From: Nautilus pompilius
Lineage: Eukaryota; Mollusca; Cephalopoda; Nautilida; Nautilidae
Reading direction: 5' to 3'
DNA: 64,000 nucleotides
NCBI GenBank assembly: GCA_018389105.1
Contig: JACATO010002189.1
Location: 583,001 to 647,000 of the forward strand
The notes under the pieces are model-generated. The model did no database searches. It saw nothing but the letters and a program-made list of their open reading frames with translations, and was not told the DNA's origin. How positions within the stretch are numbered: the stretch's first letter is position 1; the number at the start of each line of letters is the position of its first letter. A program made the position numbers and the translations under genes. Below are positions 15,027 through 58,203 of this stretch, piece by piece.

Positions 15027-15691
15027 TTAATTATACAAACTGATCTTTTTTTCCTTTTTGTGATGACAGCAGCCGCTTATATTATGAATCAGTCCCCTGA
15101 ATTCCCTAAGTAGGATACCAAGATCCATTATGAAAATTCCACCAAAAACACTGCAGAGAATCACTATTCCCACATAGCCTATGTACTTAGCCAAAGGTCG
15201 TTCATCTGGTGCACTGGTCTTTTTCCGTCTGTCCGCACTAGTTGACTTCTTGTCCACGGTTAGCTCCTTCACCAGTTCCTGTAGTTGCTTGCTATGCTGA
15301 CTTTTAGTCAGGGTTTCTCTGGTTGGTGGCAGTGATGTAATTGTGTTTGAACATTTACAGTAGCATTTTGATGAAGATTTTACTGAAGACTGCGTGGAAG
15401 AAATTGGAAATTCAGAAATGCTGGAACTTCTTGCGTCAATGATCATTTCTTTTCCCGATGTTACATTCCATTCTTTTGTTCCTGATGTCACGTTCCATTC
15501 TTTTGACCCCGGTGTCACATTCCATTCTTTCGTTTCCAATGTCACGTTCCATTCTTTTGACCCCGGTGTCACATTCCATTCTTTCGTTTCCAATGTCACG
15601 TTCCATTCTTTTGTTTCCAATGTCACATTCCATTCTTCTGTTTCCAATGTCACATTCCATTCTTTTGTTTCCAGTGTCACATCCCATCTTT
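15027..15691 (-). CDS. Gene A exon 5: glyco-repeat stalk, TM helix and tail
   Basis: The acceptor is TTTCAAATTCCAG (AG at 15693-15692), phase 1, and the frame is open to the stop at 15027-15029. The first part encodes nine copies of a 9-residue unit (W-N/D-V-T-x-x-x-K/E-E). Next come a Ser-rich segment, a CYCKC motif, a charged region ([15 protein letters not shown]), the family motif [19 protein letters not shown], and a hydrophobic helix ([18 protein letters not shown]). The tail is [21 protein letters not shown] with SLYN at the end. Two adjacent cysteines in the tail could be palmitoylated. Overlapping + strand frames made of FHS repeats are shadows. Confidence 0.88.
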
Positions 15692-18600
15692 CTGGAATTT
15701 GAAATAAAAATTAAAAGTATATAATAATTAATAATAATAAAAGCAGCAAGCAAAGAACATTGAAATATGATAGATTATAAATTATTCTACCATCTTACTA
15801 AATTTGTGGAGATATGATTGTTTATCCAGCATCTTATTAATCGTAAAGTTCTTTTAACTGGTATTTCAAAAAGGTATTACAGTACAGTACAGAACCATAT
15901 TTTGATAACCATCATCCAGATCAATGCTATCTCACATAGGCCAAAAGCTCCACGGACAAAATATTTACTGGGTGTAATTGGGGGCACTGTCAGTTGTCAG
16001 TGGTGTTACCATTGTCCTTTTCTGCAAGTGCCATGGTGTCTGTTTATAGTAAAAGTTGTTGCATATTTTTCGTGGATTATCACCCCACTCATTCAACATG
16101 GCATCAAATAAACTATCAACAGGGTGAAAAGAGGAAGAGGTGGTTCTACCAATAAAACAGAAGACGAACATATGCAAGAGACTTGTGAAAGGTGAAAATA
16201 GGAATGATTTTATGAGAGAATTCAGTGTTGGCGGCTCTGCCATCTACAACATTAAGGAGCAAAAAGATAAGTTAACAGGGTTTTATGCAAGTTCGGAAGC
16301 TGAGAAACCCATGGAACTGTGCTGTATTCTTTGTAAACTTAAGCCTGAACAACTTGATACTGTTCTCTACAAATAGTTTGCACTGAAATGTTCTGAGAAT
16401 CTCTGGCCCCATGTTCATTGAAAAGGTGAAAGACTTTTACAAGCAAATTTAACTCACTGAACTGTGTGCCTTTTCTGATAGGTGGGTCTCCTGTTTTAAG
16501 CTGCATCATGAAATAAGACATCCTGATGTATTGGATGAACAGAAATCTGCTGAAAAGTACTGCGAGTTCTTCTCTAAGTTGTAGATCATGGTTTGTTGCC
16601 AGATAAAATATACAATGCTGACGAAACCAACCCACTCTGGCGCTGTTTGCCTGCTTCCAGATTTAAGTAAAATAAAGACTGATTGACTGGATAACTCCTG
16701 ATTAACTGGCACCTTTCAGGTCCCAAAGATGTGGAATAACAAAGCTTTTACTGTTGCTCATTTTAGCTACTATGAGGAAGTAGGAATCCATTATGGTTTA
16801 TACAATTGCCCAGAAGAACAACAAGAAAACTTGATTTAATTTTTTAATGTTTACAAATACTTCAACAACTACCACTGGTAATTTATTTCATCCATTTACA
16901 ACTCTATTCCTAAAAGAAATTGTTTTTGTTTTGCATTTTTTTCCTGAATCAAGCGAAGCTGATGTCAAATGAGAATTATGGCCCTTGGTAGTTTTAAATT
17001 TAGATGGCCAAAAGAATCTGTTTTGTCCTGTTGCTTTAAAATCCTTAATTAGTTTAAAAACCTCTCTTGATATATTCCTGAAAATATCTAATAACTAAAA
17101 ATAAGATTTTAAACTGTTAAATATAACTAAATATTTAAATTCCAATAACAACAATCATTTACGCTTTGCTTCTTAAACTTTTACCATTTCTGTATACCAG
17201 TCAATGCATTTAAGAACACATTAGATGGTTGGAAGGCACAAGGGAATTCACATAAGTTGAGATTCTTTCTTCCACTTTGTAAGTAAATATAAGTGTTCCT
17301 CCAACACCGCAGAAAACCTTTTTTTGATTTTAGCTACTGCAAAAATAGACAGTGATGTGCGACTCAAAATTGCATGAGCTGGGATGTCCTGGCTGCTGAG
17401 TTTTTAAAGTAACATCACTTCACTACCTACTGATCCACTTTACTTAGAGAGAGAGACTCTCTCTCGGAAGCTTGATGGTTCTTAAATCGGCATGAGCCTG
17501 GCAAAAACAGCAGAATATCTCTGAAGAGTTGTACAGTGTAGAATTATTGTGCAAGTTGCAAAGATTATTTGCTCATATTTTAATGATGACGACGACAAAA
17601 GCTAAATATATGCAATTGGAAAAATTGTTGGAATACATGAGGAATGTTGCAAGAAGGCTCTATCACAATAGTTTCTTGTGCAGAGAATCTGTGCAATTCT
17701 TAGACCAAGTAGACAGTACAATGATCAAAGTATCGAGGATCTGCTTCGCATCAGTTATCCAAAATCATGGCCAATTTTTTACAAAGTATGTGATGGCTTT
17801 TCTTTTTAATTCATTCCTATGAAAAACTATCCACTGGTGTAAAACAAAATGTATGAATTCAAGGAATATGTTTGAAGAATGGTTTCTAACTACATTATCT
17901 CTACTACACCTTTATCTTTCATTTATACAACTTTTTTTCTCTCTTATAAAAAAAAAATGTATAAAATAAGTCGCTTATCTTTCCCAATAACTTCAGTAGG
18001 TGAAGAGTTAACAAATCAAATATAACTGACATACCTGAGCACTCGTTTTCAGCACTTGTATCTGCTACATTGTATCTTTTGCCTGAAATGCGAAAGCTAA
18101 TGTTTGTTAATTATTCATTGTTATTTTTCTACCTTTAAAAAAAGTGAAAGAACTGAATTCTAATACTGCTTTTAATGCAAAAAAAAATAATATGTAACAA
18201 AAACACATGGCATTACCAAATACTGGGGGTTACTGCAGAAAGAGGGGGGGGGGAATACTTTCCTAAATGCCAGAAAGTTTAAAGAATTCAAATAATAAAT
18301 AGCCATATATACATCTATCAATTGGCAGGTAAAAGCTTGTTCTGATACTTTTGATAGATTCTATTGTCTTTCAACCATGAAAATTGTCCCTAGATGTATG
18401 CCACTTTTATTGCATCCCTAGTTGTCACTTTAATATATTAACCCTATCACAAAATGGTTGTTTTCATCAATTCAAAAAAAAAAATATTAATATTAGTATC
18501 AGTAGATGGATTAAATAATGAATATTGAACGCATTCACCGTTTTCACAAACTGTGACAGGTGATATTTAAAACCTGTTTCAAGGGTTAAGCATGAAAATT

Positions 18601-21600
18601 TCTTATATTTGTGATTAATAACTTCATCAGCGAAACCAGGTAGTCATAATATGTGGAAACAATGCGCATATTTTAGCGGTAGGTGTTAGTTGTGGTTTCT
18701 TGACAGGTTCTCTCTCTTTTTTTTAACATAACGATGCAGTACTACTCGGGTTTAGTAGCTAGCAGCCCCTCATCTGTGAGTAGAGGCTGAACATCCAGTC
18801 TAACCCACTTAGCCTTGCCAAAATTGTAACTGGTTATGGAATCAAAACCTGACTCCGCTCCCCTCCCCAATTCTGTGCACTGAGAAACAAAGAAGAATGC
18901 GGGTTACCAGAACGCACTTTAAAAGTTTAAATTGTTAAATTTTTTCCCGTATTAGAAATAAATAAATGATTATACTAATTACAGTATCAATGCTCTCTCT
19001 CTATACTCAACCTCCTATACCCCATTAAGCAAGTTCTAGGTTGGCCAGTCCACAGGTTACTCTACTGTCTTTCAGCTTGGTCACCAAGGCTAACCACACA
19101 CCTTTCCCCCTCCAGCTCCCTTCTGCAAGATATCCTCAGACTTAAAAAGTCAAGGGCAGTGGTTTGACAAAAAAGAAACAAAGTAAAATCAGTCATTGGA
19201 GGTAAACAGATTTTGGGCTGAGAGAAATGATGGGTCGGCTGGATCCAAGCCAAAAAGTAAATTAGGATCTCTCTCTGGAGCTGGAGATATTTCCAACAGG
19301 CTGGCTCCTGATTACTGAGACAGTGATGACCAATAGCCATTAGGGTAAGGTTGAGACAAAAGGAGAAAAAAAAACAAAGAAAGGCAAAGAATGATCATTT
19401 GGGGTAATGGCCAAAACTAGCAGGCCAACAACAAGATGAGTTTGTGCTGGTGTTAGGGTACTAAGAGATGCTTCCATCCAAGAACTGTGGATTGGGAGAA
19501 CTCTTACAACAACCTTACTTCCACCAGCAAGCCAGAGATATCACATGAATCCATAGTTGATCCATCAGTGCTGTTGCTTCCTGTCATCAGCAGTGATATG
19601 CACAAAACTCAGAGAGGATCTAGGAGGCTGAAGCTGACAAAGTAGAGAGAGAGAAAGAAAGAAAATTGGAGAAATCTACATCAGATAGAGAAGCAGAAGT
19701 GAGAAAGAAAGTTAATGGTAATTGAGATGGCTATAGCTGATAGAGAAGCTGACAGAAAGAAAGCTTATAAAGCAGGCTAAAACTGACAGAGGAAGATGAA
19801 ACAAAGTTGTTGTGGAAACAGAATGAGAGGTTGTAGAGGGGGTTGGGCAGTGGCGTAACTGGGGGGGGCAGAGGGGGCACGTGCCCCCGGGCGCTGTTTT
19901 GAGGGGGCGCAAAATTGACCAAGCTCATCGGGATAAACTATCATGAATGGTGAGATATGTCGACATTGACTTCAACAAAAGGACTGTTCATGTCTGAGAG
20001 TCCTTTCTTGGGTCCACCCTACTTGAAAAGAAAGATGCAGCCAGTATTGTCGACATAATTTTGAAGAAATTGGAAGATGATGGCCTTGCACTGAGTGATT
20101 GCAAGGCACAATGTTACAACAATGCTGCGGTCATGGCCGGACACACCAGTGGAGTTCAGCAACGCATAGCGGACTTGAACAAAAAGGTGATATTTGTGAA
20201 TGCCGGCAACCATTCGCTCAACCTTGTTGGTTTAAGCGCAGCAAAGAGCAGTTTTAAGATTATTTCATTTTTCAACGTCATTGATTCCCTGTTTGCGTTC
20301 TTTTCGTGATCAACACGGCATTGGGAAAAGTTGAAGCAAGCCATCCCTTTTGTTCTCAAATCTTCATCGGACACCAGAGCAGATGCTGTGAAACATCTTG
20401 CAACATTCCTAAACAAAATTCTAAACCTTCTGCAAAATTTGGTAGATGATAATGATGAGACATCCGACACACACTGTAATGCTGACCATCTTTTAAGCCA
20501 AATGCTGGTCTTCTATTTCTTTGCATTGCTTGGATTTTGGAACAGGATTCTCGCTCGAATCGACCGGATTCAGAAACGGCTACAAGATCCAACGATGAAC
20601 TTCCGGGATGCTGCAGATGATATCAAATCCCTTCAGCAGCATTTCTTGGATAATGGAAATGGTCTTGTCCACCAATCTCTAAATGAAGGCATTGAGCTTA
20701 GTCAACACTGGAACGTTTACATCAACAAACGTCGCGGAAGACCAAAACGACGGCCTTCTGATAATTCCAAAGATGAAACATCAGCACCAACCAATGAGAT
20801 AGAACAAATCATGAAGACTGTTCTTCATCATCTTCAATCCGAAATGCAGCATAGATTCGCCCGTTTACACGATATTGACGCAAAGTTTTGTTTCCTCCTT
20901 GATGTTCGTACTCTATGTTATCCCTCACTTCCAGACGATGTTGCACTTTGATCAAAATGCGCTTCGTTGGCTAATCATTACAGTGGTGACATTGACGGCG
21001 AGGAACTCTTCGAAGAAATCATTGACTGCTGGGCGTTGTTGTCCACTCGTGCCAAAGTTTCAATATCAAGAGCAGAACATTTCAAATTTATTGTTCAATA
21101 TGGAGATAACAGCATCAGTCTTCAGGTTATGTTAACAATAGCGGTTTCAATTGCAAGCTGTGAAAGGTCATTCAGCAAACTCCAAGCTAATTTTGTCATA
21201 TTTGCGGACATCAATGTCTCAAAGCCGCCTGCGTGACCTTGCCCTCCTCAGCATCGAAAGCGAAGAAACAAACACAACCGATTTTGAAGACATAATCGAT
21301 CAATTTGCATCAATGAAAGCTAGAAAGATCCCTTTGTAAATACTTTCTGTTACTCTTTTGTTCCATTTCAATTCATAAGAGTATTTTTAGATTATACATT
21401 CATGGTATTTTCAATAGTTAGTACTTGGGATAAAGTTAACTTTAAAAAATCCTTAAAGGGGTTAAATCGGACAACTGTCTAAGAATTCTTAGTTCATAGA
21501 TTTTTGAAGTAACTAACCTAACCCATTTAGCTCTAGAGGGCTTAAAGTTAGGAATATCCGTACTTCATTTTAGCAGATAAACGAAATTTGACAAGAATAA

Positions 21601-24600
21601 TTTCTTTGCTCAACAGGCACATGACAGTATAAGCATTTTTATATGATACTTGCAAGAACGACTCATTTGTTCATTGCTTTTTACGGTATGTCCTATAAAA
21701 AGGACAGTTTGGAATTAGTGGGTTGAATATTACGGAGCAGTAATAATATTGGGAAAAATTAGAAAAATAAAATGAAATGATTTAGTTACTTATAACTCAT
21801 AAGTAATAAATAATAGGTCGATTTTTTACTTGGGGGGGTGCAAATTTCGAGCTTGCCCCCGGGTGCCATTTACCCTAGATACGCCACTGGAGTTGGGAGA
21901 CAGAGAAAGCTGCTGGAGATGCAGGTATGGAGATAGCTAAAACTGAGAGAGACACCATTACTAATTTTAATCTTTTTTCTTTAAAAAAATTATTAGTTAA
22001 TCTCAAATGGCTAAAATTATTTTTTGAGTTGGTGTATTAACAAAATGAAAGGTAAAAACATTAATGAAAAGCAATAATAAAAGTGGGTCTCAAAGGAAAT
22101 TATAGTACATTTGAAACAAAGAATTTTTAAAGCAGAGTACTAACCCAAATCTACAGCTTTACTAACAATAATGTATTTGCATAACATAATTAATAGTGTG
22201 CACACTCTAATTGCATACACAAATAACTTGTTTCATTAAATGGCAAAACAACAGCATTGTAAGAATTAAAAGAGAAAAATTAATACTTTGTAAAGAGTTA
22301 TTAACAAAAGCATATGGTATTATCTAAACTGTTAAAAGTATAGCTGTGTATACTTTTGTTTGTCATATTATTTCCAAGAATTAAATACCAATAATCAGTG
22401 AATATAATCTGAGTATTCCAATATAGAGCATTAACTGTCATCGTGATCCTTAAAAGTCCTACCCACTGGTATGACCACCACACAAGGAATTATCTAAAAG
22501 TAAAATGATAACTTTACTAAATAAAGACTTCAAATATGTTTTTTTTTAATGTAACAAATTTATATAATTAAAGTTTCTTTTGTTATGCAAGTAAAAATGT
22601 CTATTAGTGAGCTGCCTTTATCTTAATGTATGCAGGCACAATATTTTTAGAAATTGAATACCACTAAAGATGTTCTGTCCAGATGTCAAGAGGTCAGGTT
22701 TGACCAACCCTCTCTTGAAAATGGTTGAAGACAGTTTCATTTTACAGCAGCCTCGTAAACTGGCAGTTAATAGCTATGCATTTAACTTGTGCATGATTTG
22801 AAGCATACATACTTGTAGAACTTGAACATATGAAATATTGTAGTTCACTGCAGTTATTCTGGTTACATGCGTTTTTGTCGATCTTCAGTCCACAGTTACA
22901 GGTTTGACTGACACAATCGACCTTTGAAACAATGCTGTTGTTTGGACATCCTTGACTTGTATTAGTAACGTCGTATGATTTTGGGATTTGTAAATCAAAC
23001 CAATAAGTTTGTGGAGACCTGTCAAAAAAATAAATAAATAAAATGGATTAATAAATCTGTCATTTCTCAAATCTTTTCAGGGTAGTAACATTTTTTAAAA
23101 AGAAGACATCATTGAAGTACAACTAGATGAGATTCCATATTTACTGTATTGGTAAAGGTAAGTAATGTGCATTTTTAAATGATACTTACTCTTCAAGATG
23201 GACTTTTTGGCACATTAAATGTCATGATTTTGTTCATTATTTTGCAAAAAAAAAAATTAAAGTAAGGAATACTTAGATTAAGATGGATAACTAAACAGAG
23301 GTGAATAAAATGCACCTTAGCTGATGTATTATGCTATTCCAGAGTTTTCTAAGCTATTGGCAGAAGAAAACCTTATTTCAGATTCTAAACACTTCCTTTA
23401 CATGCTGGTGGAAAAAATTTCGGACTTGAAAATGAAGAGATAATTTTGATGAAGAATTTCAGTATGATTAATTCCAACATTTAATGTAACACATTTTGTT
23501 GTGCATATATTTTCTAACAGTCATTTGCTAATACACATCTAATTTCATGCACTAATAATTTAAGTATAAAATATGAAATATTTTATTGGTTAATCCGCAA
23601 TGTTTTATGTATGCTAATCTGACATTGTCTTATACATTTAGTAGCAGTATATTGTTTACACATCTCTGTGATAATAATAACAATACTTACAATGATTGCT
23701 GTGGCATAATTAAGATATCATCAATGGTAAAAAGATTCATATTTATCAGTTCACAGTAAACTTTTGCCTCGTACCATGTGAGCTGTGTCTTGAATTGGTA
23801 GTATTCCTGTCTGGCAAGTACATGTACAAGGGCAACTGAAAAAATAAGGCTAAATGATAAAAATTGTAGCTTTCTGTGGAGTTTGGCAGTTTGAATTATT
23901 AGGTTGTTATTAAAGTTTTGTTGGTTTTTTTACCGCAACAATGAGACTTCATATCGTTGCTGAACGTGAAGTTTATTAATCAGAATAAGTTCCATTACAA
24001 TCAACACACTTCTGCCAATGAGTTACAAGCACATTTATACCATTTTGAAAAATATCTGGATTTCTGGAGTTGATAAACTGTTGGAAGGCAGTTTCAATTG
24101 CTGCTTGGTTAGAGAAAGATTTCGTAAGAAGGAAGCTGTCCAGGTATTTGAAAAGGTGATAATCTGTGGGAGAAAGGTCTGGTGAATAGGCTGGGTGAGG
24201 GAGAACTTGGTACCCCAACGTGTTCAGTTTCTGTAGAGTCCCTTTTGCAACATAAGGACGACAATTTTAGTGGAGCAGGATTTGGTCTCTTCGATTCACC
24301 AGTGCCGGCTGTCGTTGGGAGAGTTTCTGATGAACAACATTTAATTCATGTCAGTACCTTTCAGCTGTGATGGTATTTGTTTCTGATGACAAGCGAAGAG
24401 CAGATCTCCAATCGATGATTTTGTTGTTACTCATTCAACTTGTGAGACACCCATTTCTCAAGCTTTTACACTTTTCCAATTGCATCAAGATGCCGGAAAA
24501 CAGTTGCAGTGCTTACGTCAAGCTCTCCAGCAAATTCTCACACTCTTTTTCTTGGATCAGCTTCCACTGAAACTTTGAGACAGTCTTCATCATAGCTGGA

Positions 24601-27240: not shown

Positions 27241-27295
<55 letters not shown>

Positions 27296-27381: not shown

Positions 27382-27801
27382 CACTGTTTAGCAAATGCCA
27401 CAGAATGCATCACATGCGAATATTACCTGGAAGTAAATTATAATAATGCTAAAGTAGATTTAAATAATTAGTTTTCGATTTTTAATTTGTAAATCTCATG
27501 TCTTCTTCAAACCCATGTACCAATGCCCATCAATGAAAACCAAACAAGGTGCAGACTGCTGTCCCCCTGTCTAACTCCCTACTAAAACCCTCAGCTGTGT
27601 AGGGGGTGGGGGTGGGCGTTAACAGCAAGCTGAGCCAATTCCGACTCGAGCTCTTAACCTTAACAATCTAGCAAGTGCTATATAAAACCCTTTTACAATA
27701 AAAAGTGAACTAGATGGGGGGCAGACGTTTTTGAGCATTTGGAAAGGGAGCATATTTTTTCCTTTGTCTATTCAGAGTTTCTGATACTAGGGGGTCATAA
27801 T
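27382..27801 (-). promoter_or_regulatory. Upstream region of gene A
   Basis: 420 bp between the gene A start codon and the hAT insertion, so the 5' UTR and proximal promoter should lie here if transcription starts nearby. No TATA box on the - strand was recognised. A TATATAAAA at about 27679-27687 is on + and points the other way. Confidence 0.3.
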
Positions 27802-28120
27802 CAGGGGTGTAGCCAGGTTATAAAGTTAGGGGGAGTGAGCACATAACGAAGACGCCATGATGCATACCAAATAATTTTAAATTCATTATGCATTTTTATT
27901 TTTAACATCAAAACACAAGGAAGATACAGTTTTAAAGGAAGCACATAATTGTTATTTTGTATTTAAAATCAAAACACAATAAACAGTTTTACAGTAAGCT
28001 CATAAATCTATATTATATTTAAAATCAAAACATAATAAAAACAAGTGTGTTGTTAATTATTTTACATTTTAAATGTAAAATGAAAACAAAACAAAGCAAT
28101 ATGCAAAATGTATGAAGCAA

Positions 28121-44851: not shown

Positions 44852-44852
44852 A
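44680..44852. repeat. (CT)n compound microsatellite
   Basis: About 170 bp of CT repeats broken by CCAT and CACTCACTCCAT interruptions that recur, ending in GTGTGTG. Confidence 0.95.
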
Positions 44853-45785
44853 CAATATATAGTATTTACTTACTGTGTGCAATTTAATTATATACCTCAT
44901 TTTACTTAAAACTAAAAGACAATTACACTTTTAAAAAACGAATTTGAAAATATCTAGTTCTATTGGAGTAAATATAAGAGACGTCTTTGTTTTTGAATTC
45001 ATTACCCCCCCCTTAAATATCTGTTATCCCCCCTTTTAATTGATCTGCCCCCACTGCGGATCCCCGTGTTTGTCTTGACCGTGAGGCGACGTTCTGCGGC
45101 GCGATTCTGTAACACGAGCGGACGCCAGATGATGATCGATCCTCCTCAGACGGCCAGGAAGCACTTTCTGTTTGCCTTCATGATGCGTCTTCGAGAACAG
45201 CAGCGCGCACACGGCTTTCCTTAACTCTCTGAAGCAGCAGCAGAGCGGACGGACAGGATCGGTCTCTGAGTACTCTGCGTGGTGACCAACTCGTACGTAA
45301 TATCCTGACAAACTCTAGTGCCTTTTTAACGCACCAAGTCATCCCTCAAGATGCATTAGGAAATATGTTTATTTTTAAAACCTAGTTAAGTGCTCGTTAA
45401 AGTTAACTCTCTGGATAAAACGATGTACCTGGCTTCGAGCATCTTTAGAATTCCAAGTAATAACTCTGGTGATTAAGCGTGTAGGCATGGTTGGGGGCTC
45501 TTGAGCGGTTGTCAAGGTGCAGGGTTACTCGCGGAACCTTCAGCATTTGTACCCGGAAAACCCGAATAGAACCCTTCAAATTTAAAAGGGACGGGTCGCT
45601 GCTGACTGGGATAGGAGGAGAGGAGCGAGAAAGCCGACGCATCAATCGCTGGATTTGATCTAGGGCCTCTTCGACCTTAGAAGTCCACACTGGACCACCC
45701 GTCTTGCGAATGTCTTAAAAAACACTTCATCATACACCAAACCGTAATGGCAATGTAATGCAGTTTTCTTTTGTTTGTTTCTCAG
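44853..45785 (+). other. Upstream region and 5' UTR intron of gene B
   Basis: The first coding exon of gene B begins at a strong acceptor (TTTTGTTTGTTTCTCAG, AG at 45784-45785), so a non-coding 5' exon should lie upstream. The GC-rich, CpG-containing block at 45040-45310 is the likeliest place for it and the promoter. No TATA box was identified. Confidence 0.35.
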
Positions 45786-45822
45786 GTCAAAATGGCGACG
45801 CTGGTTTTTATCTGTTACATTG
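45786..45822 (+). CDS. Gene B exon 1: start codon and signal peptide start
   Basis: The start ATG at 45792-45794 lies in a good context (AAAATGG), six bases after a strong acceptor. It encodes MATLVFICYI and ends in phase 1 before GTAAGT (45823-45828). Confidence 0.85.
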
Positions 45823-48800
45823 GTAAGTTAGTTTTATAATCATAACTCGTTTTCCGCCAAAGAAAAGAAAGAAATCACTAAGGAGACAAATGGAAATCCA
45901 CGACACAGGTGTTCTGGCAACGTGTCGACTTCAAAAGACGCCCGCTATAAAGAACCTTCCAGGTGGCGCAGACTTCAGATACTTCGTGTGATTTAAAGAA
46001 GAAACAGTGCCCCCGTTTTTAATGTGATATTTCCCCCTATTTAAGTACAGGTGTGGTTGTCGTAAAGATCACGTGTGTATGCGTACCTGATTTAGAATTA
46101 CAACACCTTGAGACTTGTAAAGCAGCGCTCTTACGCATGCGCTAAAAAAGGTAACTGATTTTGTTTACTTCCTAGTCTTGTGGCTGGGCTTGGCCAAATC
46201 TATGCAGCTGTACACAGCCTTTAACCGTCCGAAAACGTGGGTCGACGCTGAGAGTGTTTGCAAGCAGTTCGGAGGACGCCTGCTGAAAATGGAAAGTAAG
46301 GAAAAGATGGCGGCATTGAAAAGTCTAAAGCCTCCATTCCAGGGATCTGAAAATTTGTGAGTATTGTCTGTGGTTTCGAATTTAATCTTTGTAAAAGCAG
46401 TTCCTAGCTCAAAACAAAGAAGGAAAAAGGGGCAGGTAAAGTTATCTGATTGATAAACATTAAAACTGATAGGAATATCGACATCACTGTATTTTCTCAG
46501 CTGCTGTAGATTTTAATCAGAACTTGGTGAAGCCAGGTAAGATCGCACGAGATCGGCTCTACTGGTTTTCTATCTATGTCTACACTACCACGTTACAGCT
46601 GCTGCAGGCGGGTAGGCCCCTTGGCCCCTGCATACTTTATTGTGCAGGCTAGATTGTGATAAAATTCCTCCCGTGATTTTTGAAGAGGTAATTTTACAAT
46701 TTTCAAGCTTCCTACTTTCGGTTTACGCCGCCCCGAAATACAGTAGTTCTTATTTAGCATCGGAGTGCGTTAAGGAGGCGGCGGTTGTTACCACGATACA
46801 ACTAACGACTCGGCCACGTTGTAGTACAATCTAATAACACCCTTCCTTGTCGAAAAGCTCCCTCCCATCTTTTACACTTTAAGATGATAAACAAACTATA
46901 TATACCCTGATTGAGTCCTCAGCTTCACAGTCTTGGCGCAGCCACTCACTCCGAACTGTAACCATTAATGACACGAAATTTTACCTTATACATACATATA
47001 CCAAGCATGTTTATAGTGTTCTTTTTGGCAAACCCTCCCGCGGTGCCAGCCAATCAGAAGTTACCCGCCGAGCTTCCTCCACTTGCAGCTCGATTAATCT
47101 CACATTGACTCCCGCGCTCATTGAGAGTCTACAAGTGATTCGGTTTGCGGTCACCAGCCAGCAAACAAGATTAGCTCACTACCGCGGATAATGGAGTAGT
47201 TTTTATTCTGATCGGATACTCTCCTGCCAACATTATTAACTAGGCAATTATCCAAAGGAAACGTAGCACAAAACGAGTGGGTGACTCTGAAAAATCGTTT
47301 AATGGGTTCGAGAAGATAATAAAAACTTAGAGGTAAATAAATTGTCCACAATTTCTCATCAAGATCTCTTTCAGCCCTTTGCGCAGCACGACCGTTTGCA
47401 GTTTACGGGATGACTAAATAGAAACATTAGCGATTGTCAGTACCATCAAGGATTATAATATAGTCACAGCTTTGGGTCAGACAAAATGAGATATTGTTTT
47501 TCGATACCGGTTTTCCGAAATTAGATTTACTAAAGGAAATATACTGTATTATATTATAGCAGAAATTAGAACACGGATCACAGATGTAACAAAAGCTATC
47601 TCGTTCGGGCAGAGTGAGCAGAGTTTGACGAATAATTATGATAGACTGAAACAAATACGACGAATATGCAGCTGCAGTACCTTGTGTAGCAAATACTTGG
47701 ATCGAATCATGCGCCTTATGACTTCGGACATTTTGTTTGCTTCCTAGTTATCTATCTTTCTGTTTCCCGCTTCTTTTTATGAGGTTTCTGATTGAAATTT
47801 TAATTGTATTCATAAAATGTTGATAGCAATAATCGTTATCATTCCTATAATGTGTTTTCTTAATTTAAGCACAATTTTACTATGACTGAAATAGTTTATT
47901 TTAAAAAGCCATGAGCTGTATGTAGCGTTGGTCATCTCCATCACGCAGAGTCTGTCTCTAGAAGGAAATGCCATTTTACGGGTCGCTAAACACAGCAACG
48001 CTAAATAAATAAACGATAGAAGAGATCTAGTTGGCATAGCACCTGTAAGCCAAAACAGATGACGACACAGATTATAGGCTCATCTATACGTTTAATTGGT
48101 AACAAATTAACCCTGCGACGAGTAAACCAGGTGTCTGTCCTACAACGTATAACAAAAGTTCAGGAACACCAGTATCGCACATGCAAGATAAGATGGGCAG
48201 CCAATAATAGGAAATTAGAATGGTGGAAGAGAAAGTCAAAAGCTACCTGGTAACCTTTTAGAACAATTGTTTACGGGCAAGGCTGGTTGTTGTTCATCCC
48301 CTCCAATGTCCATCAATGCGGCGCTTCGTTAGTAACCACGAGGAACTGGTCGTACAAACTTTTCGCGAGCCGCCTTTAGTTCGGCTTCAGCTTTGTTCCC
48401 CCCTTTAATTGAGACTTTAACTGGGTGTCTTAAAAAGGTGAAATATTTCTATTTATTTTTAATTTGTTACTCACTATTAAGCGATTTTTTAAGCTTTCGT
48501 CGTTACATTTTCAATGAGGTAAGCGACAGATCAAAACGAGAGCTTTCGTTAATGGAAGCCGTTTGGGGTAAAAATCTGTTGTCTTTTTTCCTTTGTTTTT
48601 GTCGCGCAGGAAGTAATTTTGAAAATCGGGTTCGTCAATTCTTGGGGACCCTATTTTTCGGGACGGGATGAAAATTCGGAGTGTGGTCGAAAGTCCTTGG
48701 GTTGTGGAACGAACTGTAGGGAAGATCCTGCTTCATATTCGAGCTGCCTCTGTCTGCTTCCTTTTCAGCACCAGTGCATTGTGGATAGGTGGGCACGCGC

Positions 48801-50716
48801 CGTGCCCGGGGAAACCGAAACATTTCTACTGGACCGACTGCGACGCCATCACCTGGAGTCTTTGGGCGCGCGGGGCGGCAGCCAAGAATGGTTGCGTGGC
48901 ACTTTCTGTTCAGAGTATTTTGTGGGATTCGTACAACTGCAGAAGGAAGATGTCTTTTGTTTGTGAAAAGCCAGGTATCTGTAGGTTTAGGGGGGGGAAT
49001 GGTGCGTTTGAATAGAACAGTTTTAAACGACCAGCAACGATAGAACTCTTCCCAGAGATCTACAATTACTGCTGGTGGACGGCAGATGTCGCTGTAAGTA
49101 CGAACAGGGGTCAGGTGACCGGATGCACGTTGTAGCCCTGCCAAACACCGTTTTTTTTTTTTTTTAAATATGGTGTAGATGGTAGGAAATGTTTTGTCCG
49201 GATACATCTGCTTTACTCAAAAGCGACCCAGCCAGGTCAGTACCATCGACACTAAGGCCCCCTATCCCCGTGACAGCCAGAGATGGGGGGGGGAGGGGAA
49301 ACTGTACCGTTATCCGCTGTTCTTTAAGAAAGTAAATATCAAATTATCGTACCGCTTCCTCCACCCGTACACGGCCATCGCTGAACAGCAGCCCCAACCC
49401 TGGCTTGCTGGAGAAAACCGGTCGTGTCAGCTGACAGACGTAACGCACAGCAACCAGGATGACGTCGACGGTGCACAGCGTAAAAGTTGCCCCTTGTAGC
49501 TGAGTGTCGATGGTCCTGTCCGGTCAAGTACTCTGTGACCTTTCTCTAAATGGTTCCTTCTTCGGAGACCGCCTGCTTACCAGCCACTGTCAGCCGCCGA
49601 GTATCTGAACAACTCGACCGCTGGGGCAAACACCACTGCGATCAGAAGATGGCGAAATTTTCAGTTAATCCTTAACATATAAGTAAAAATTGAATTGATT
49701 TCCAACGAGACGGGCAGACGCTCAGATGTGCGCTAAAAATCCTAGGATCACTTTAGAATTGGTCTTTGCGTGGCGTGGGTGGAAATTGGTACTATGGTAG
49801 AGACTCGACCAGAAGATGACGGTTGTTGGTATGTTCAGTTACGATCTGACATCCAGTGGTGCTAATCTACACCTGTTCACTTCGAGACAGAATGTTTTGC
49901 ATAGCATCGCATATTTTATTATGGTATGATAAGATTTAAAATATCATGGTATAGTTAGAATAGCGTAGTAGAGTATTGTTAGCTATGGTGTTGTGCAATA
50001 TAGTATATTCTATAGGATAGTGTAGAATTTACACTGTAAAGCAAAGTTCATTATGCTGTGCGATAGTACGAAATATTATCGTAGCAATTATATTATACTA
50101 CATTTTCGCTAATTTTGCAACCGGTTAGAAAGTCAAAATGTTCCTATTTTTAAAAGTTTTTCTATTGATATATATATATATAATTTAAACTCCCTTCATT
50201 TACGATTTCTATTAATTAATTAACTTTTTCTCTCGTATACCGATGCTTTCACGGAACACAACCCTGTTGAGAGGAAGCATGTGGTTCTGATTTCGGCGGA
50301 ACTAATTCATATTGAATCACTTGATGGTCTTACGTATTAAACCTATCGTCTGCATCTTTAAGCGCCACTGTTGATGGTTTTTCTTCTTTTCAAAACGATT
50401 AAAATAAAGGGAAGGAGTGAATGAAATGTAAAGTTAGTTTCTCCCCACCAATCGTTAAGTACCGTTCTCACTAAAGGATAGGTCCCCGGGCAATGACATG
50501 TCGCGTGCAGTACCCGACGACGAGATGCTGCTAGGAGATATTATTTGCATTACGTTCTATTAAATATTAACAGGGATCGAGCGGTTGTGTTCCCTTCTAC
50601 CAACGATTTCACGTTAGTTATTATTGTCTGTTGTTTTTTTATAAATAGTAAAATAACCCGACATTTTGTGCGAGTATTCTCGTAACACCGGTTAGCATTA
50701 ACTACAGCGATATTGA

Positions 50717-50759
<43 letters not shown>

Positions 50760-51650
50760 GGAGATGAGAGAGAGAGAGAGATGGAGAGAGAGAGAGAGAT
50801 GGGGAGATGAGAGAGAGAGATACAAACACAGTAGCTGAAATTTTTGACTTTTTTTTTATAAGCATCCGTTATTTTACATTTCGTTTATTCGCTATTTTCT
50901 CTCCTCCCCCCTCCCAGTTCCATACAGCTGTCGATACGACTGCTACAGGAACCGAACAATTTTAAGCCATACTCACAGCTCTCCGCACGAATTCGCCGTC
51001 AGGTCGATGAAAGAATGCCAAGAGAAATGCTCGGCGCTTCTGACGATCAGCCGGGACGCATGCGCGGGCGTGAATTACGTCACTTCTAGAAAAACCTGCA
51101 CATTGATTCGTCCGCGTGGAGACGGCAGCACCTTGAGTACAACCGTTGAGCCATACACGCGATCCTGTCTCCTCAAAGAATGCAATCCCGGTGAGAACGT
51201 TACAGCAGATACGCATCAATAATGTATACACTTTAGTGAAACATTGAACCAGGCTATTCAATTACTTTTATTGTTGTTATTAACACTGTTTCTTTTGTAT
51301 GTCGCTTTTTTTCCCACCCAATCAGCAGAATCCGCACCGAAGCAAACACAAAATCGTTCAGTTTAATTTATTTCTGTCATTTACTTTAAATAACAAAGAA
51401 ATTTCTTTTTAGTTGTGTATATATCACTGTTACGTGACTCGTTAGCGTCTTTCGTGTGGCTTTTTAATTGCGTAGGCATAGGATTAATATTTATTAATCT
51501 GCCAGGAATATATGGAGCTTTGAAAACATCGCCAACTGAAGCCTGCTGTCTTCTGATTGATGGCGCTCAGCTAAAGGAGATCGATGGTTCTGGTTCACCC
51601 TCCCTCTTGCCAACAGATGATGAAACCGAGTGGTGCTAAACGTATAGTAG

Positions 51651-51682
<32 letters not shown>

Positions 51683-54489
51683 CAGTTTATTATCTAGGAA
51701 CGATAACTCTTCACATCAACTTGTTTCAGACGATCTCATCTCACAGGTCAGCAGGCGCAGACATTAGTTAATGCTGATGTGAGCAGTATATGATGCATTT
51801 TTAAAATAACTTTATATATATAAGGTGATGTAAGTTGCCCCTGTTAACTCTCTACTTTCTGAGAATGACACATCAGTAACTTTCTGCTCTGAACCTCTTT
51901 TACGTCCGTCTGATTACAACATAACTCCTAGGGGTTTAAAGGAAAGTTACAAAATTAAAAGAAAAAGTTAAGTATACTTCATAAACTACTGATGTGACTG
52001 CATTGATTTTTTTTAACGGTAGAAAAACTAATAATTAAATAGTGAGATGTATTTAGATTTGAATTTTTAACAATTTTTTTTTTTTGTAATCTGCCATAGA
52101 TCATTTAGGAACCTGGTTGGTGTTTTACCACACCCTAACTAGCTCCTAGGGGTTAAAAGGTTTTGCTTTAGATTCCACCCACCAATCATAATATAAAAAT
52201 ACTGAAAATTGAACGTTTTTAAATTCCTGCTTTAATTACATGTAATCGGCTAATAAATTTGAAGTAAACTTATCCATCTCTTCAAACTTGAAATTAAAAT
52301 TTAATTTTTCTTCTCATTTTGTTAATATTTACAGTTTTGTTTTTGTGTGGAAATCGATTTATTTTTTATTTTTTTTTGCAGAGAAAATTGAAATCAATAA
52401 AGAAGCCTTAAATATACAAACAAAACTAGAAGTTACCGTCACAGAAACTAACAAAGCTCGATTTTACATATAGTCGACTTTTCAGCCAAACTCGATATCG
52501 TGAAGTCCTCCTTCTACTGAAGATTTTAATAATGTACGGTCCCGGTGAAATAATTTACGGAAATTCTCTCTATATTACACGAATGAATCAGTTTAAACAT
52601 TTTGTTGTCTGGTTACTGTTCTTTTCTAAATTCTGCAATGAATAAACTGGAGTTTCCTTATAATAGCTTGTTGTGCCACAGAGGCTGCAGGGGAAAGCTA
52701 CATTTTCCTTTTCTTTTGTTGTACGTGTAGAATTTCTAGTAAACTCGACTGAGCAGCCTGTCGAAAGCACATCCGAGAGTCCGAGTGAAAAATGCTGTCT
52801 TTCCGGGTATAAGGATTCGGATACTGTAATCGAAACCGCAACGTCCACAGAGTCCTTGGACCAAACTACAACTTCAGGTGCGTACAAAGAGCTGTCAACC
52901 ACCCCACACCACCTCCCACAAACATCTTCATACTCTTCGCCAAACTGTTAGAAGTTTCAGCCAGTTCCGGCGGAACTGCGTTCGTATGCTAAGGCGGTGA
53001 TCGCCCGACACCGGTGAGATGATGGAGACAAGAAGATGCGGTTACACCCCATTGCTACCTTCTCAAGGATGTCGAGCCGTTATGAGATATCGTAAAACTA
53101 AAAAAAAAAATAAAGCAGCGAAGAACAGATGATTATAATTTTGCGATTATGAATATTTCATTCCTTAACAGATTAACAATAACACCTTCTATTGTCGGTA
53201 GTGTACGTAGGTTTTTCCCGGTGTGGGGAAGAGAAGCCACGTTTTGTGTGCGCCATCTTTGTATTCGAAAATAAAATTCAGGCATTGTGGCATCTTTACT
53301 GTCATCAAATGAGACCCACCGCGATCTTCGAATGCTGGCCAGTTAGCACCAGTAGGTCGCTGCAGAGTCAGGGATGGATACACAGCTACCAAGACCCACC
53401 GCGGTGATAAAGGATACGTTTCTCAGATAGCCGGGGCAATGACGTGGCGCCGGGGTGAGGACGATTGTCCTGCAGTTTAAAATAACAATGGCAATAGTTT
53501 TGTGCTAAGTTAGTTTTATATATTTTTAGAGTTCCCAACAGCAGTAAATTCCGTAAGATTTAACCACTAATCCATCCCTCCCTCAGATAATTCAGGGCCC
53601 GTGAACGTAAGAACAAAGAAGGTAAATTAAAATGTCTGTTCAGAGAGAGAGTCATCTTTATAAGCATTAAAAAAGAATAATACATAAATAATGAACTTAT
53701 AATAATTATATTAGTTATTATTTATGTTTGTATTTAGAACAAAAAAAAAACAAACACACAGAGAAGTTATAATAATAACAATACGTCCTACAGAAAGACA
53801 AAGTACGTCCCTTATGTGATGCGAAAGGTTGCTAGGCGACCGGATGGCATCACAAGATGTCACGTCAGGTACAGATGGAAATGACAACGCCACAGCTGTA
53901 CTCTTCATTTAAAATCGTTTCGGTTATTGGTACCACCGCTCTGACACTGTTTTTCTTTCCAGTTAGCGGAACAGAAAGCGTACGGGCTCCGTTGCGGCCA
54001 GGTGCTGACATCTCGAGCGGGGGTTCCTCGAAGCAAGGTATTTACCTACCTCAGTCGACGACCGGAATTACACCAAACACAGCGCACTTGAGCTTTCATT
54101 TTTCGACTAAATTCTCTCCGTTTCTCTTTCAAGGTGCGACACAAACGGAGCCCTTAGACCAACAACCACCATCCTTCGGTTATTCGAAGCAGTCGCAGTG
54201 CTCGTGCGAACCGAGTACCCCGAGACCGACCGAGCTCTCGGAGGAGGGGGGCCTGGAAAAGATGGTCGGAGAAATGAGAGTGGACAGGAGAAAGACGTCG
54301 GCGAACAGGCGCAAGCTGACGAGCGCTCAGGACGACCGGCCGTCCGCCAAAGGGCTGGGCTACCTCGGCGTGGTTGTTCTCCTCATCGTCGTCGGCAGCC
54401 TAGTGCTGCTTGACCTGTCGGCCCTGGGGCGTGACGGAAGGACGTTCGTCCATCACGCGAGACACTGTCTGAAGAAGCGCGGGAGGTGA
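45786..54489 (+). CDS. Receptor gene B: CTLD, PAN, Thr/Ser stalk, TM protein (7 exons)
   Basis: Exons 45786-45822 (coding from 45792), 46176-46356, 48769-48974, 50918-51190, 52731-52877, 53963-54037 and 54134-54489. Intron phases are 1, 2, 1, 1, 1, 1. The coding total is exactly 423 codons, 422 aa. Predicted order: signal peptide MATLVFICYIVLWLGLAKS, C-type lectin-like domain, 8-cysteine PAN/apple-like domain, Thr/Ser-rich stalk, CSC motif, basic juxtamembrane motif, TM helix and a basic 22-residue tail. It should be a single-pass surface protein with a recognition ectodomain; no enzymatic motif and no ITIM/ITAM is visible. It is divergent from gene A and convergent with gene C. The frame is uninterrupted across all seven exons, which strongly supports the model. 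Function and ligand are unknown. Confidence 0.85.
46176..46356 (+). CDS. Gene B exon 2: signal peptide end and first half of the CTLD
   Basis: 181 nt, phase 1 in and phase 2 out (donor GTGAGT at 46357). It completes the hydrophobic signal (VLWLGLAKS). It then encodes LYTAFNRPKTWVDAESVCKQ and FGGRLLKMESKEKMAAL, the W-x-x-A-x-x-x-C and G-G-x-L opening of C-type lectin-like domains. Confidence 0.9.
46357..48768 (+). other. Gene B intron 2
   Basis: 2.4 kb phase-2 intron that splits the CTLD. No repeat or coding feature was recognised within it. Confidence 0.7.
48769..48974 (+). CDS. Gene B exon 3: second half of the CTLD
   Basis: 206 nt, acceptor CTTCCTTTTCAG, donor GTATCT (48975). It encodes ALWIGG, FYWTDCDAITWSLWARG, GCVALSVQSILWDSYNC and RRKMSFVCEKP: the WIG motif, central WxLW, and the closing W-x-x-x-x-C and F-V-C-E signature. 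The canonical EPN/QPD and WND calcium/sugar-binding triplets are absent, so binding is probably not classical carbohydrate recognition. Confidence 0.93.
48975..50917 (+). other. Gene B intron 3
   Basis: 1.9 kb, phase 1. It contains a run of variations on TATTATGGTATGATA near 49915-50100 and a GA repeat at 50714-50820, about 100 bp before the PAN exon. Confidence 0.7.
50714..50820. repeat. (GA)n compound microsatellite
   Basis: GA repeats with recurring GATGGGGAGAT interruptions in gene B intron 3. Confidence 0.95.
50918..51190 (+). CDS. Gene B exon 4: 8-cysteine PAN/apple-like domain
   Basis: 273 nt, phase 1 at both ends, acceptor CTCCCAG, donor GTGAGA (51191). It encodes SCRYDCYRNRT, SMKECQEKCSALL, RDACAGVNYVTSRKTCTLIR and SCLLKECNP. 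The C-x3-C, C-x10-C, C-x11-C pattern and the C-x-G-V-N-Y segment are those of PAN/apple modules, which bind proteins or glycans. The spacing matches the exon at 62236-62502. Confidence 0.82.
51653..51681. repeat. (GA)n microsatellite
   Basis: About 14 GA units in gene B intron 4. Confidence 0.95.
52382..52473 (+). CDS. Gene B possible alternative terminal exon (secreted form)
   Basis: A very T-rich acceptor ending TTTTTTTTGCAG (AG at 52380-52381) precedes a phase-1-compatible open stretch: KIEINKEALNIQTKLEVTVT and ETNKARFYI, then TAG at 52471-52473. No usable donor follows. An AATAAA lies at 52641-52646, before the next constitutive acceptor. If used after exon 4, it would give a 260-residue secreted CTLD-PAN protein without a TM helix. 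This is inference only. Confidence 0.35.
52731..52877 (+). CDS. Gene B exon 5: Thr/Ser-rich stalk
   Basis: 147 nt, phase 1 at both ends, donor GTGCGT (52878). It encodes VNSTEQPVESTSESPSE, CCLSGYKDSDTVIETATSTE and SLDQTTTS: a hydrophilic Thr/Ser stalk with one N-S-T sequon and two adjacent cysteines. O-glycosylation is likely. Confidence 0.75.
53963..54037 (+). CDS. Gene B exon 6: short linker
   Basis: 75 nt, phase 1 at both ends, acceptor TTTTTCTTTCCAG, donor GTATTT (54038). It encodes SGTESVRAPLRPGADISSGG SSKQ-type linker sequence. Confidence 0.72.
54134..54489 (+). CDS. Gene B exon 7: CSC motif, juxtamembrane motif, TM helix, tail
   Basis: The acceptor is TTTCTCTTTCAAG (AG at 54132-54133), phase 1; the stop TGA is at 54487-54489. 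It encodes a Pro/Gln-rich start, QCSCEPS, GEMRVDRRKTSAN, the family motif RRKLTSAQDDRPSAKGLGY, a helix LGVVVLLIVVGSLVLLDL, and the tail GRDGRTFVHHARHCLKKRGR. The preceding intron (54038-54133) is 96 nt, divisible by three and free of stops. Confidence 0.88.
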
Positions 54490-54576
54490 TGACCACACTA
54501 AACCGGCTTCTGGCATTTAACGAGGAAGTCAAAAAAGGTAATTAAATTAATTAACAACAACAGCAAACACCTGCTG

Positions 54577-54582
54577 AATAAA
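54577..54582 (+). terminator. Polyadenylation signal of gene B
   Basis: Canonical AATAAA 88 nt after the stop codon. Confidence 0.7.
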
Positions 54583-55013
54583 GCAAATCGACACAAGGTT
54601 TCTGTTTGTTTAATTCGATAACCAAACACGTCTGGGTAACACCGCCATGTCTATCTTCTCAAGACAATAGGGAAGATCTCTGCGGGGTGGGACCAGCGCG
54701 GATATTTTCAACAATATCCCCACCCCACCCCCCCCAACACACACACAGTACTGCACATCTACTTCAGACATCCACAAAACAATTATTTTCCTAAAACTAA
54801 CGTGGACCTCGTGCCAGCCCTACCGAGGCTCCACGTGGATTTTACCGCGAAGGCCGCTGACGTCATCGTTGCCAGTACTATTTGTTGGTAATTAGAGCAC
54901 TTCTGATGGCGTAGTAATCCTACAGCGATCCAAAGTGACTTTGAAAGCCTGACGCCCTTCCGGAGAAATACGACTTGGGGCGGACGGCCGCTGTATCTTT
55001 GATGTCACAAATG

Positions 55014-55349
55014 CTGTCAGTCATAAGACCTAAAGCTGCTGGCCGACCGAGACAAGTACCGGCTGCGTGTTATCCACGGAACCGCAATCCATTTACTGTC
55101 AGTCAATAAGACCTAAAGCTGCTGGCCGACCGAGACAAGTACCGGCTGCGTGTTATCCACGGAACCGCAATCCATTTACTGTCAGTCAATAAGACCTAAA
55201 GCTGCTGGCCGACCGAGACAAGTACCGGCTGCGTGTTATCCACGGAACCGCAATCCATTTACTGTCAGTCAATAAGACCTAAAGCTGCTGGCCGACCGAG
55301 ACAAGCACCGGCTGCGTGTTATCCACGGAACCGCAATCCATTTACTGTC
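55014..55349. repeat. 83-bp tandem repeat, about four copies
   Basis: Unit beginning CTGTCAGTCAATAAGACC repeats at 55014 (one base short), 55096, 55179 and 55262, with a partial start at 55345. Copies are nearly identical, with one visible T/C difference (AAGTACCGG versus AAGCACCGG) and the missing base in the first copy. It has no coding sense. Confidence 0.95.
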
Positions 55350-55629
55350 CAGTGGCATAATAGTGACAGAACGGCATGGTCGATGTGGAGACTAGATACG
55401 CCTAAGATGGTTACTGTTTATGACTGCGTGACGATCCGAACGGTGTATCATCTATATATTTTTAAAATCTGTCCGGACGAATAAATCGCTAAAGATGACG
55501 AAAGAAGATGCTAGTTAAGATCTAGTACACTTATTACCTCTAATTTTGGAAAGTTGGGTGCCGTTTTTGTTAGAAAGGACAGAGTTAATTTTTATCATTA
55601 AAGCTGGAAAAAACCCTTAGTGATTATTA

Positions 55630-56118
55630 CAGGGGATTCCCGTTATACGATCCAAAAACGTTGGACTATAGCGGAACTACCTCCCATAAGAATTGATGTA
55701 GTAAGGGGGATACGTTCTGTCGATTACTTCAGGTCCACTATTAAACTGAAAGCGAGACATTTTATCTCATGAGGATCAGTGGGATAAGGGTTAGGGTTAT
55801 AGGTTCTGCGTCCTTCCCATACCTCAGTATAGCAGCACTCGACAAAGACAAGTGGTCTTACCTTGAACAGTTGGTTGGCTGGTCCAATCCAAGATATCAT
55901 CAGCTCTCCTCGGGATAGCACGTCGGCCAACGGAAATGGCGAGCGATGTCAGCTGGCCGTCCACCGCTCATATTAACGACGTCCGGCTATCACATCATCA
56001 AGCTTCACGCTACAGGCAGACTGGGAAGAGGGCGTGAACGCGTGGCGAAGGAATGGACACGTTCCTTAATAACTTATGGACTTATATGCGAAACGACGCA
56101 TAGCAGGGACCCCCCCTG
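55630..56118. mobile_element. TA-flanked Tigger-like MITE
   Basis: 489 bp between TA dinucleotides (55628-55629 and 56119-56120). The ends are CAGGGGATTCCCGTTATACG and (reverse complement) CAGGGGGGGTCCCTGCTATG. There is no transposase. The end sequence fits pogo/Tigger-type elements. Confidence 0.5.
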
Positions 56119-56588
56119 TATATGTTGAGAGGATCTAGGCAGAAGAAACCCACTTAGAAAAAAAAAAAGTTTCAGAAAATCTAAATTATAAAAATCTCCT
56201 TTTGATAATTAGATTTTTTTTTTACAAAATATATCGGAGAAATTTTAAAGCTTAAGTCGGAAACAATACGAAAAGAAATTACGACCATCTGTTTATCCGT
56301 CTGAGATAATTGTCTCTCCGTACACGTGTCATTTTAAGCTGATCGTATTGGCCAGTCGACCGAAACTGTACCAGCTGACTACCCTCGCAGTTACTCGCTA
56401 GAGGGCGGCTTAAGCACGTGCTCGGTCAACACCCTATTCCCCGGTCTGCTGGAAAATAGTTAAAGCGACTAGATACATTACTGACCCCCCCTTTTTAAAA
56501 AAAAGGTTTAGAGTGTGCTGAAACAGTTTTTTCATCTTCTTGTCTTCGAGGTTCTGAGGGACATCTCACAAAAAAGGGAAGGTGCCGG

Positions 56589-56620
<32 letters not shown>
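56589..56620. repeat. (GT)n(GA)n microsatellite
   Basis: Short GT then GA run. Confidence 0.9.
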
Positions 56621-57862
56621 GCTCCGGTGATAAGGCGAGTTAGGGTCGGTGGTCGAGGTGCGCCTGCTAAGAGTTACCCGCGGATCTCCCATCCCACGTA
56701 CCCGGAAAAACCTTACTGAGAACTCTGTTTCTTTTTGTAAGTCCGAGGAAATCCGCGCGGCCGGGCTGCTGAGGAGGAACGAGAAGAAACGATGCTACCA
56801 GGGTGGTAGGTTCACCCAAATTCAACCATGACAGCTCAGATACGTTTTTAATATCTACATGATCCCCCTTATAAATAATCGATTGTTCTTTTTTTACATA
56901 TACACTCTACATGCAGTTTAACTGGTCAGTATACACCACAAGATAGAGACGAGCTCGCCATAATTATCGGCAGTTTTAGGACGTGTGTCCGCTCTCCGAT
57001 AGAAAGGGACGACGTTGAGCTTCTTACATGAGAAACAGTAACACGGGAGATAACCTTTACCAGAACTTCTGTAACGACCTTCGATTTTTCGCTAATGTTC
57101 TCCACATATTTCTCCGCAACATCGCCTTGGCTACAGCATCTCAAGGTGGGGGGGGGAGGTCTACATGAAAGAAAAACTATTATTGTTATTATATTTCTAA
57201 ACACAAGATAAACTTCTTTCAATGCGGGTTATTCGCACAACATAGCAGCATTGTAGCACACAGCCCTAAGATAGATTTGTAGAAATTTTCCCACTGTTTA
57301 TCGCATAGAATTACGGAATTAGCTTCGCGTGGACGGCTATAATGGCAATCCTTCCTTACAGCACCATTCAAGGGGAGGCAGTAAGGGAGATGAATCGAAC
57401 AAACCCTGAAAAACAGCTAAAGCTGTGGCTTAAGGCTGCGTCTGCCCCGATGGCGATCAGAGATGCGACTGCTGGTCCGAGATTCACTGTACCATGTAGG
57501 CTCGCTTGCCCTTTTATAGAGTGTCTGAACAGTTTCCAAAATTGGCCTTTCCCCAACTCGGAAAGACAGAACTACACATATACACACATAGAGTTGGTTC
57601 TTTATATTTTGAATGATACATTTATTGAGATTTTACAAATCTTTCATGGACGCTAGAGGGCGTGACCAAGGTATATAAACACATCTCTTCGCAGTCACGT
57701 GCAGCACGTCTTTCTGCCGCTCGTGGTGTTCTAACTTTGCGAAGGTGTCCCCTTAACCCTATTTAAGAAGAGTAAACAAAGGTTTTTTGGTTGTTGTTGT
57801 TGTTGTTGACGCGCTATTGGTCTAAGCGCCTTCAGGGGGTAAGCTGTAAGGACGGACGGGTC

Positions 57863-58203
57863 TTACCGCTGCCTGGGCTCGGCCTTCCGGTTGTGCGGCC
57901 GGAACAAATGCCCCACGTTGTGGCGGAGACCTCTGCAGTCCCTCTTCAGCGCGGCAGCGTCCAGAAGAACGATCCCCAACACCACGCTGACCAGGACTGC
58001 CGTGGCCACGTAGCCGAGGCCGCGCGCCGACGGCCGATCGTCCGGGGCGCTGGCCTTCCTCCGCCTCGCCGAGGACGTGTTTGATTTCCGTACTCGGATG
58101 TCGCGGACGATCGTCTCGATCTCGGTCGGGCGGGAAGACGTCGCCGTCGATTTCTCCGTGTTCGGGTCGCAGGAGCAGGCGCACGTCCAGGAAGTGTTGG
58201 GTC
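57863..58203 (-). CDS. Gene C last exon: CACSC motif, juxtamembrane motif, TM helix, tail
   Basis: The acceptor is CTGCTCTACTTTTAG (AG at 58205-58204), phase 1, and the stop lies at 57863-57865. It encodes PNTSWTCACSCDPNTEK, a Thr/Ser segment, VRDIRVRKSNTSSA, the motif RRRKASAPDDRPSARGLGY, a helix VATAVLVSVVLGIVLLDA, and a tail ALKRDCRGLRHNVGHLFRP continuing with basic residues. It aligns residue for residue with genes A and B from the Cys-x-Cys motif through the helix. Confidence 0.88.

Follow-up and report, generated by a model that had tools for sequence, protein, structure and literature searches.

In this study, which was based on a 64,000-nucleotide stretch of the Nautilus pompilius genome (contig JACATO010002189.1, positions 583,001 to 647,000 of the forward strand; hereafter, the window), we analysed three genes, A, B and C, whose terminal exons stop at 15027 (-), 54489 (+) and 57863 (-), respectively, and encode the same juxtamembrane-transmembrane (TM) module. 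The module comprises 66 residues and lies at 15078-15275 (-) in gene A, at 54262-54459 (+) in gene B and at 57914-58111 (-) in gene C. It is the well-defined signature of a large family of receptors that has no name, and it recurs across the 728-Mb genome (2558 contigs) from which the window, C2087:583001-647000, was taken.

The initial annotation had reported that these three exons shared such a module, and the comparison of their products bore this out. The pairwise identities were 31, 31 and 33 of 66 residues (47-50%), with 17-20 of the 34 residues of the juxtamembrane part identical between any two genes, and the pairwise scores were 185-197, while the maxima that were reached by chance were 61 in the full shuffles and 73 in the segment-wise shuffles (2000 of each kind per pair, the segments being the part before the TM helix, the helix and the tail). 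Because the segment-wise shuffles did not exceed 73, the likeness is not due to common hydrophobicity, and a composition artefact was ruled out as its cause. A profile that was built from the three modules matched only A, B and C in the window, the next candidate having an expectation value (E) of 0.91. At the DNA level, the third codon positions of the module agreed at only 14/66 (A/B), 13/66 (A/C) and 27/66 (B/C) positions, and most of the identical residues were encoded by different codons (24/31, 26/31 and 21/33). Recent gene conversion among the three genes was therefore ruled out, and recent DNA exchange does not account for the likeness. The nonsynonymous divergence (dN) was 0.52, 0.53 and 0.44; the synonymous divergence (dS) was 1.23 for B/C, where dN was 0.44, and was not computable for A/B and A/C. 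As judged from the sequences, the likeness of the modules is a matter of constraint on the protein rather than of recent DNA copying, which agrees with the earlier proposal that the module is under selection. The Cys-x-Cys element that had been described before the module was present in all three genes, but its full CxCxC form precedes the module only in A and C, gene B having CxC only.

The gene models were built from splice signals and reading frame; all of the joins used AG and GT and kept the frame. Gene A was modelled with four exons, its start not being found, gene B with seven exons that encode 422 residues, and gene C with three exons inside the window and two past its end, its start likewise not being found. 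The features are as follows:

15027..15691 (-): last exon of gene A, with a stalk of glycosylation-site repeats, CxCxC, the module, the tail and the stop codon; the phase-1 acceptor was chosen by hand, the automatic choice being a phase-0 site
15452..15691 (-): stalk of gene A, an in-frame 27-bp tandem repeat with eight N-V-T sequons
18035..18082 (-): short linker exon of gene A, phase 1-1; a weak call from splice signals only
22813..23018 (-): exon of gene A for the C-terminal half of a degenerate C-type lectin domain, phase 2 in and 1 out (19.3 bits, cut-off 22.6)
23691..23835 (-): exon of gene A for the end of a signal-like stretch and the N-terminal lectin half, phase 1 in and 2 out
45792..45822 (+): first coding exon of gene B (MATLVFICYI), which opens a signal-peptide-like stretch
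46176..46356 (+): exon of gene B for the N-terminal lectin half, phase 1 in and 2 out
48769..48974 (+): exon of gene B for the C-terminal lectin half, phase 2 in and 1 out (joined domain 43.4 bits)
50918..51190 (+): PAN exon of gene B, phase 1-1 (25.7 bits for the exon by itself and 20.3 within the whole protein; cut-off 21.4)
52731..52877 (+): stalk exon of gene B, phase 1-1
53963..54037 (+): stalk exon of gene B, phase 1-1
54134..54489 (+): last exon of gene B, with a phase-1 acceptor, CxC, the module, the tail and the stop codon
57863..58203 (-): last exon of gene C, with a phase-1 acceptor, CxCxC, the module, the tail and the stop codon
61434..61535 (-): stalk exon of gene C, phase 1-1
62236..62502 (-): PAN-like exon of gene C, phase 1-1 (17.7 bits, under the cut-off of 21.4)
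C2087:650049-650257 and 652440-652623: lectin exons of gene C, past the end of the window

The protein that is encoded by gene B starts with MATLVFICYIVLWLGLAKS, which by eye is signal-peptide-like; for this reason, the basic motif of the module should be outside the cell, next to the membrane, as had been predicted. The initial annotation had also held that the ectodomains of the three genes differ. For A, B and C, this was wrong in kind, since all three carry the same split lectin domain, which is interrupted at identical phases (1 in, 2 between and 1 out) and the second exon of which measures 206, 206 and 209 bp. Against the Lectin_C family (PF00059, cut-off 22.6), gene B and the C-terminal half of the gene C domain (31.9 bits) passed the cut-off; gene A fell below it, with its introns positioned as in B and C. 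The score of PAN_1 (PF00024) in gene C was 16.1 bits when the whole protein was used, and no PAN domain was found in gene A by pattern. The lectin domains of A and B shared 25/107 identical residues, with a local score that was reached by 30/2000 shuffles, and the likeness of the PAN regions of B and C was not above that of shuffles (score reached by 664/2000). Taken together, the three ectodomains appear, from their sequences, to be alike in kind, though far diverged.

These ectodomains resemble those of the C-type lectin-like membrane proteins (Lectin_C, with PAN/Apple), and the nearest solved chains were LY75 and the Reg3-type lectins. In C-type lectin domains, the calcium/sugar-binding motifs, EPN or QPD together with WND, mark only the members that bind sugar. 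Neither EPN/QPD nor WND was found in the lectin domains of A and B, which makes classical sugar binding by these domains unlikely. A further difference from the C-type lectin-like membrane proteins is that the C-terminal module had no match among solved chains. As for the stalks, that of gene A is a minisatellite within a coding exon in which each repeat adds one N-glycosylation site, and its length and number of glycans could thus differ between individuals. The linkers of B and C consist of Ser, Thr and Pro to 39%.

When the source genome was searched with two module queries, at least 41 and 40 matches were obtained at E<=1e-3, which combined to at least 46 places on 34 contigs, these places being defined by that threshold alone. 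We read and aligned 30 of the 46. In all 30 loci, the block that runs from the juxtamembrane part up to the Asp of the TM helix was free of gaps, and the Asp and Arg of the DxRP motif were present. Moreover, the TM Asp stood exactly 27 residues past the first Asp (that of DxRP) in 29 loci; in the remaining one, L021, the reading frame ends prematurely. Either CxC or CxxC was found in 25/30 loci. The acceptor of the last exon could be called in 28 loci, of which 21 had phase 1, five phase 0 and two phase 2 as the best call. The tail motif that had been described as part of the general module did not hold up; R-[ED]-x-R occurred in A, B and C only, i.e., in 3/30 loci. Similar C-termini with basic-x-TSA, DxRPSA and TM-LD are presumably present in uncharacterised molluscan gene models.

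Some of the copies deserve separate mention. Six module matches, on C945, C1671, C2287, C848, C1497 and C1292, had near-equal E-values, extents and identities (38-41%) and are perhaps a recently amplified subfamily; the match on C1292 contains a TGA. Three matches from the two query lists lie on small contigs and have an internal TGA or copies nearby. The modules of L012 and L013 are near-identical, but L012 has no CxC and a different upstream frame; decay of this copy, or a different mode of splicing, may be the reason. The module of L019 ends an open frame of 1746 residues (L041, C1815:663000-672900, minus strand), and upstream of it there is a repeated unit with a high content of Pro, Arg and Cys.

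The earlier statement about differing ectodomains found its support elsewhere in the genome. We analysed approximately 10 kb upstream of each of 19 modules (none of them A-C) as well as the stretch past the window for gene C. A splice-and-cysteine filter yielded 110 candidate exons, of which those that looked domain-like by eye, from ten stretches, were scanned against Pfam; the cut-off was reached in 7/10 stretches (six other modules and gene C). The domains above the cut-off were Lectin_C in L031, L045 and L050, Kringle in L033 (7.8e-20), SRCR in L046 (5.1e-29), PLAT in L038 and WSC in L043, and those below it were WSC in L032, PLAT in L049 and Lectin_C in L034. A phmmer search of the 20 stretches with the domains that had been found added one more at E<1e-3 (L036, lectin) and weak stretches at E 0.01-0.05 in L042, L047 and L048. 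On the sense strands, there were 20 matches at E<1e-3 and 23 at E<0.1, of which 15 were the queries themselves, leaving five and eight; the antisense control gave no matches at E<1e-3 and one at E<0.1. The module is thus apparently attached to quite different ectodomains in other parts of the genome, as far as gene position can tell. In a maximum-likelihood tree of 29 modules and 61 columns, from which L021 was left out, 5 of the 26 inner branches were starred and 12 were open. Lectin genes were placed beside A-C and again, in the starred pair L025 and L027, among the PLAT and SRCR genes, the lectin label of L027 being weak. Exon shuffling through phase-1 introns is no more than plausible from these sequences.

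As had been expected in the initial annotation, no named domain was recovered. When the 30 module members were searched against Pfam, none came near a cut-off; seven families were listed, with a single member apiece and E-values no better than 0.018. The module profile had no match at E<=1 among the PDB chains, and the search of NCBIfam, which covered the modules of A, B and C only, gave matches at chance level. Podoplanin, a plant-virus protein, DUF6133, SecE and CcmD, as well as three designed ankyrin chains, were rejected as chance matches because they were below the curated cut-offs or had no significant single stretch. On these comparisons, the module is without a credible match to any curated family or PDB chain. 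Twelve motif strings of the module were absent from the literature that was searched, most subscription journals being outside this search, and the topic searches found no title or abstract opening that named such a module. No relatives were detected in viral and prokaryote contig collections, which are not meant to hold animals, and hence this null result says nothing about the phylogenetic range.

The recurrence of the module suggests that a large family of receptors has a single partner or handling route in common. We give about an even chance to what we consider to be the best explanation, i.e., that the phase-1 terminal exon provides varied ectodomains with one common membrane partner. 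We directly observed the conservation, the spacing without gaps, the excess of phase-1 acceptors and the varied domains that are coded upstream on the same strand. From these, the module would be a last-exon membrane anchor that is common to many single-pass type I surface receptors, which would be built of a signal peptide, the exons for a lectin or another ectodomain, a stalk, CxC, an extracellular block, the TM helix and a short tail. The block, of approximately 34 residues, would hold two copies of basic-x-TSA and then DxRPSA, and the helix would carry an Asp at a fixed position close to its inner end. A last exon of phase 1 could follow any 1-1 ectodomain exon, and the fixed block and the TM Asp may dock on the common partner. 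A co-receptor or adaptor would be a candidate if its TM segment carries a basic residue or if it has an acidic face beside the membrane. Signalling or sorting would then fall to the partner, because the tails of A, B and C have only 21-28 residues, are basic (net charge +4 to +7) and contain no tyrosine motif (YxxL/I/V) of the immunoreceptor tyrosine-based activation or inhibitory type (ITAM/ITIM) in any of the three.

Several observations weigh against such a docking unit. A TM helix can accommodate charged residues at its inner edge even if it has no partner, and the TM Asp was found 5-6 residues before the first basic residue of the tail in only 15/30 loci, two of the 30 having no basic tail residue at all. 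Some tails may hold sorting signals of their own, since a YxxPhi motif was present in 2/30 tails and one [DE]xxxL[LI] match in tail A. In addition, the ectodomains were assigned to the modules by strand and position within 10 kb, and neither Pfam nor phmmer revealed an ectodomain in 6/20 upstream stretches. The deep forks of the module tree were weak, so that the tree does not establish that modules were joined to new ectodomains. An alternative is a plain inherited anchor, in which the family would have grown by ordinary duplication and the module would be kept because insertion, trafficking or stop-transfer depends on it; no special partner would be involved. This is a possible, though not a probable, explanation. 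It is favoured by the relatedness of A, B and C over their full length, their lectin exons being of identical structure, by tails that extend only about ten residues past the TM Asp in some loci and by the tree giving no firm swaps between modules and ectodomains. However, an extracellular block that is free of gaps in every aligned locus exceeds the needs of anchoring, given how few residues the lectin domains of A and B share, and at least five domain classes lie upstream of the modules. Considering the gap-free block that runs from outside to the membrane, the TM Asp and the short tails, docking is a somewhat better fit than plain anchoring and a clearly better one than shedding by furin.

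Shedding had been proposed in the initial annotation, with the basic juxtamembrane stretch being cut and the ectodomain released. Long stalks and the dibasic pairs near the membrane (at least two in each of A, B and C, save for a single pair in the first copy of C) are consistent with it, but the furin pattern R-x-[KR]-R was absent from A, B and C (0/3) and was found in only one of the 30 aligned loci (L009). Moreover, DxRPSA and the TM Asp are conserved as well, although a protease site would require neither. We thus rejected a furin-type site, and shedding as such seems very unlikely; the sequence cannot judge other sheddases. Even more improbable is a reversed topology in which the basic-x-TSA copies would be targets of basophilic kinases in the cytosol. 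The juxtamembrane stretch of 27/30 loci does contain [RK][RK]x[ST], an 8-residue internal repeat has a score that was reached by 23/2000 column shuffles, and the charge on the two sides of the TM helix is similar in A, B and C. Such motifs, however, are frequent in any basic stretch that is rich in Ser and Thr, and in gene B the signal-peptide-like start, together with lectin and PAN domains that are rich in cysteine and precede the TM helix, places the stretch outside the cell.

The docking unit can be compared with the activating immunoreceptors of vertebrates, which pair with adaptors such as DAP12 via charged TM residues. In both cases, there is a ligand-type ectodomain, a short tail without ITAM/ITIM (in A-C) and a fixed charged residue in the TM region (in 29/30 loci). 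The ligand chains of vertebrates carry Lys or Arg in the TM helix, whereas the chain with the module carries an acidic residue, Asp, which is near the inner edge. The most far-reaching version would be an undescribed receptor chassis, in which one last exon has spread over the genome, is spliced to lectin, kringle, SRCR, PLAT and WSC ectodomains and docks all of them on a single signalling subunit via the intramembrane Asp and the extracellular DxRP block, making it an adaptor-receptor system that is independent of the vertebrate one; we regard this as rather unlikely. If the module is a docking unit, it could lead to the signalling or sorting partner that dozens of uncharacterised receptors share. 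Should it be an anchor only, its signature (basic-x-TSA, DxRPSA and a TM Asp that follows the first Asp by 27 residues) would still identify such genes from the last exon alone and would bring together membrane proteins with lectin, kringle, SRCR, PLAT and WSC domains, which current annotation keeps separate.

Further analysis of the window showed that its G+C content steps from mostly 0.30-0.40 (1-34000) to mostly 0.38-0.49 (34000-64000) near 34 kb. The G+C content at the third codon positions of the coding sequences was 0.38 in gene A, 0.62 in gene B and 0.71 in gene C. Between genes B and C, there is an 83-bp tandem repeat with four copies and 99% matches at 55014-55349. Additionally, the reading frames at 7549-8157 (+), 12106-12798 (-), 19998-21233 (+) and 23979-24266 (-) of the window were transposase-like by eye, presumably of the Tc1/mariner, Tigger and hAT kinds.

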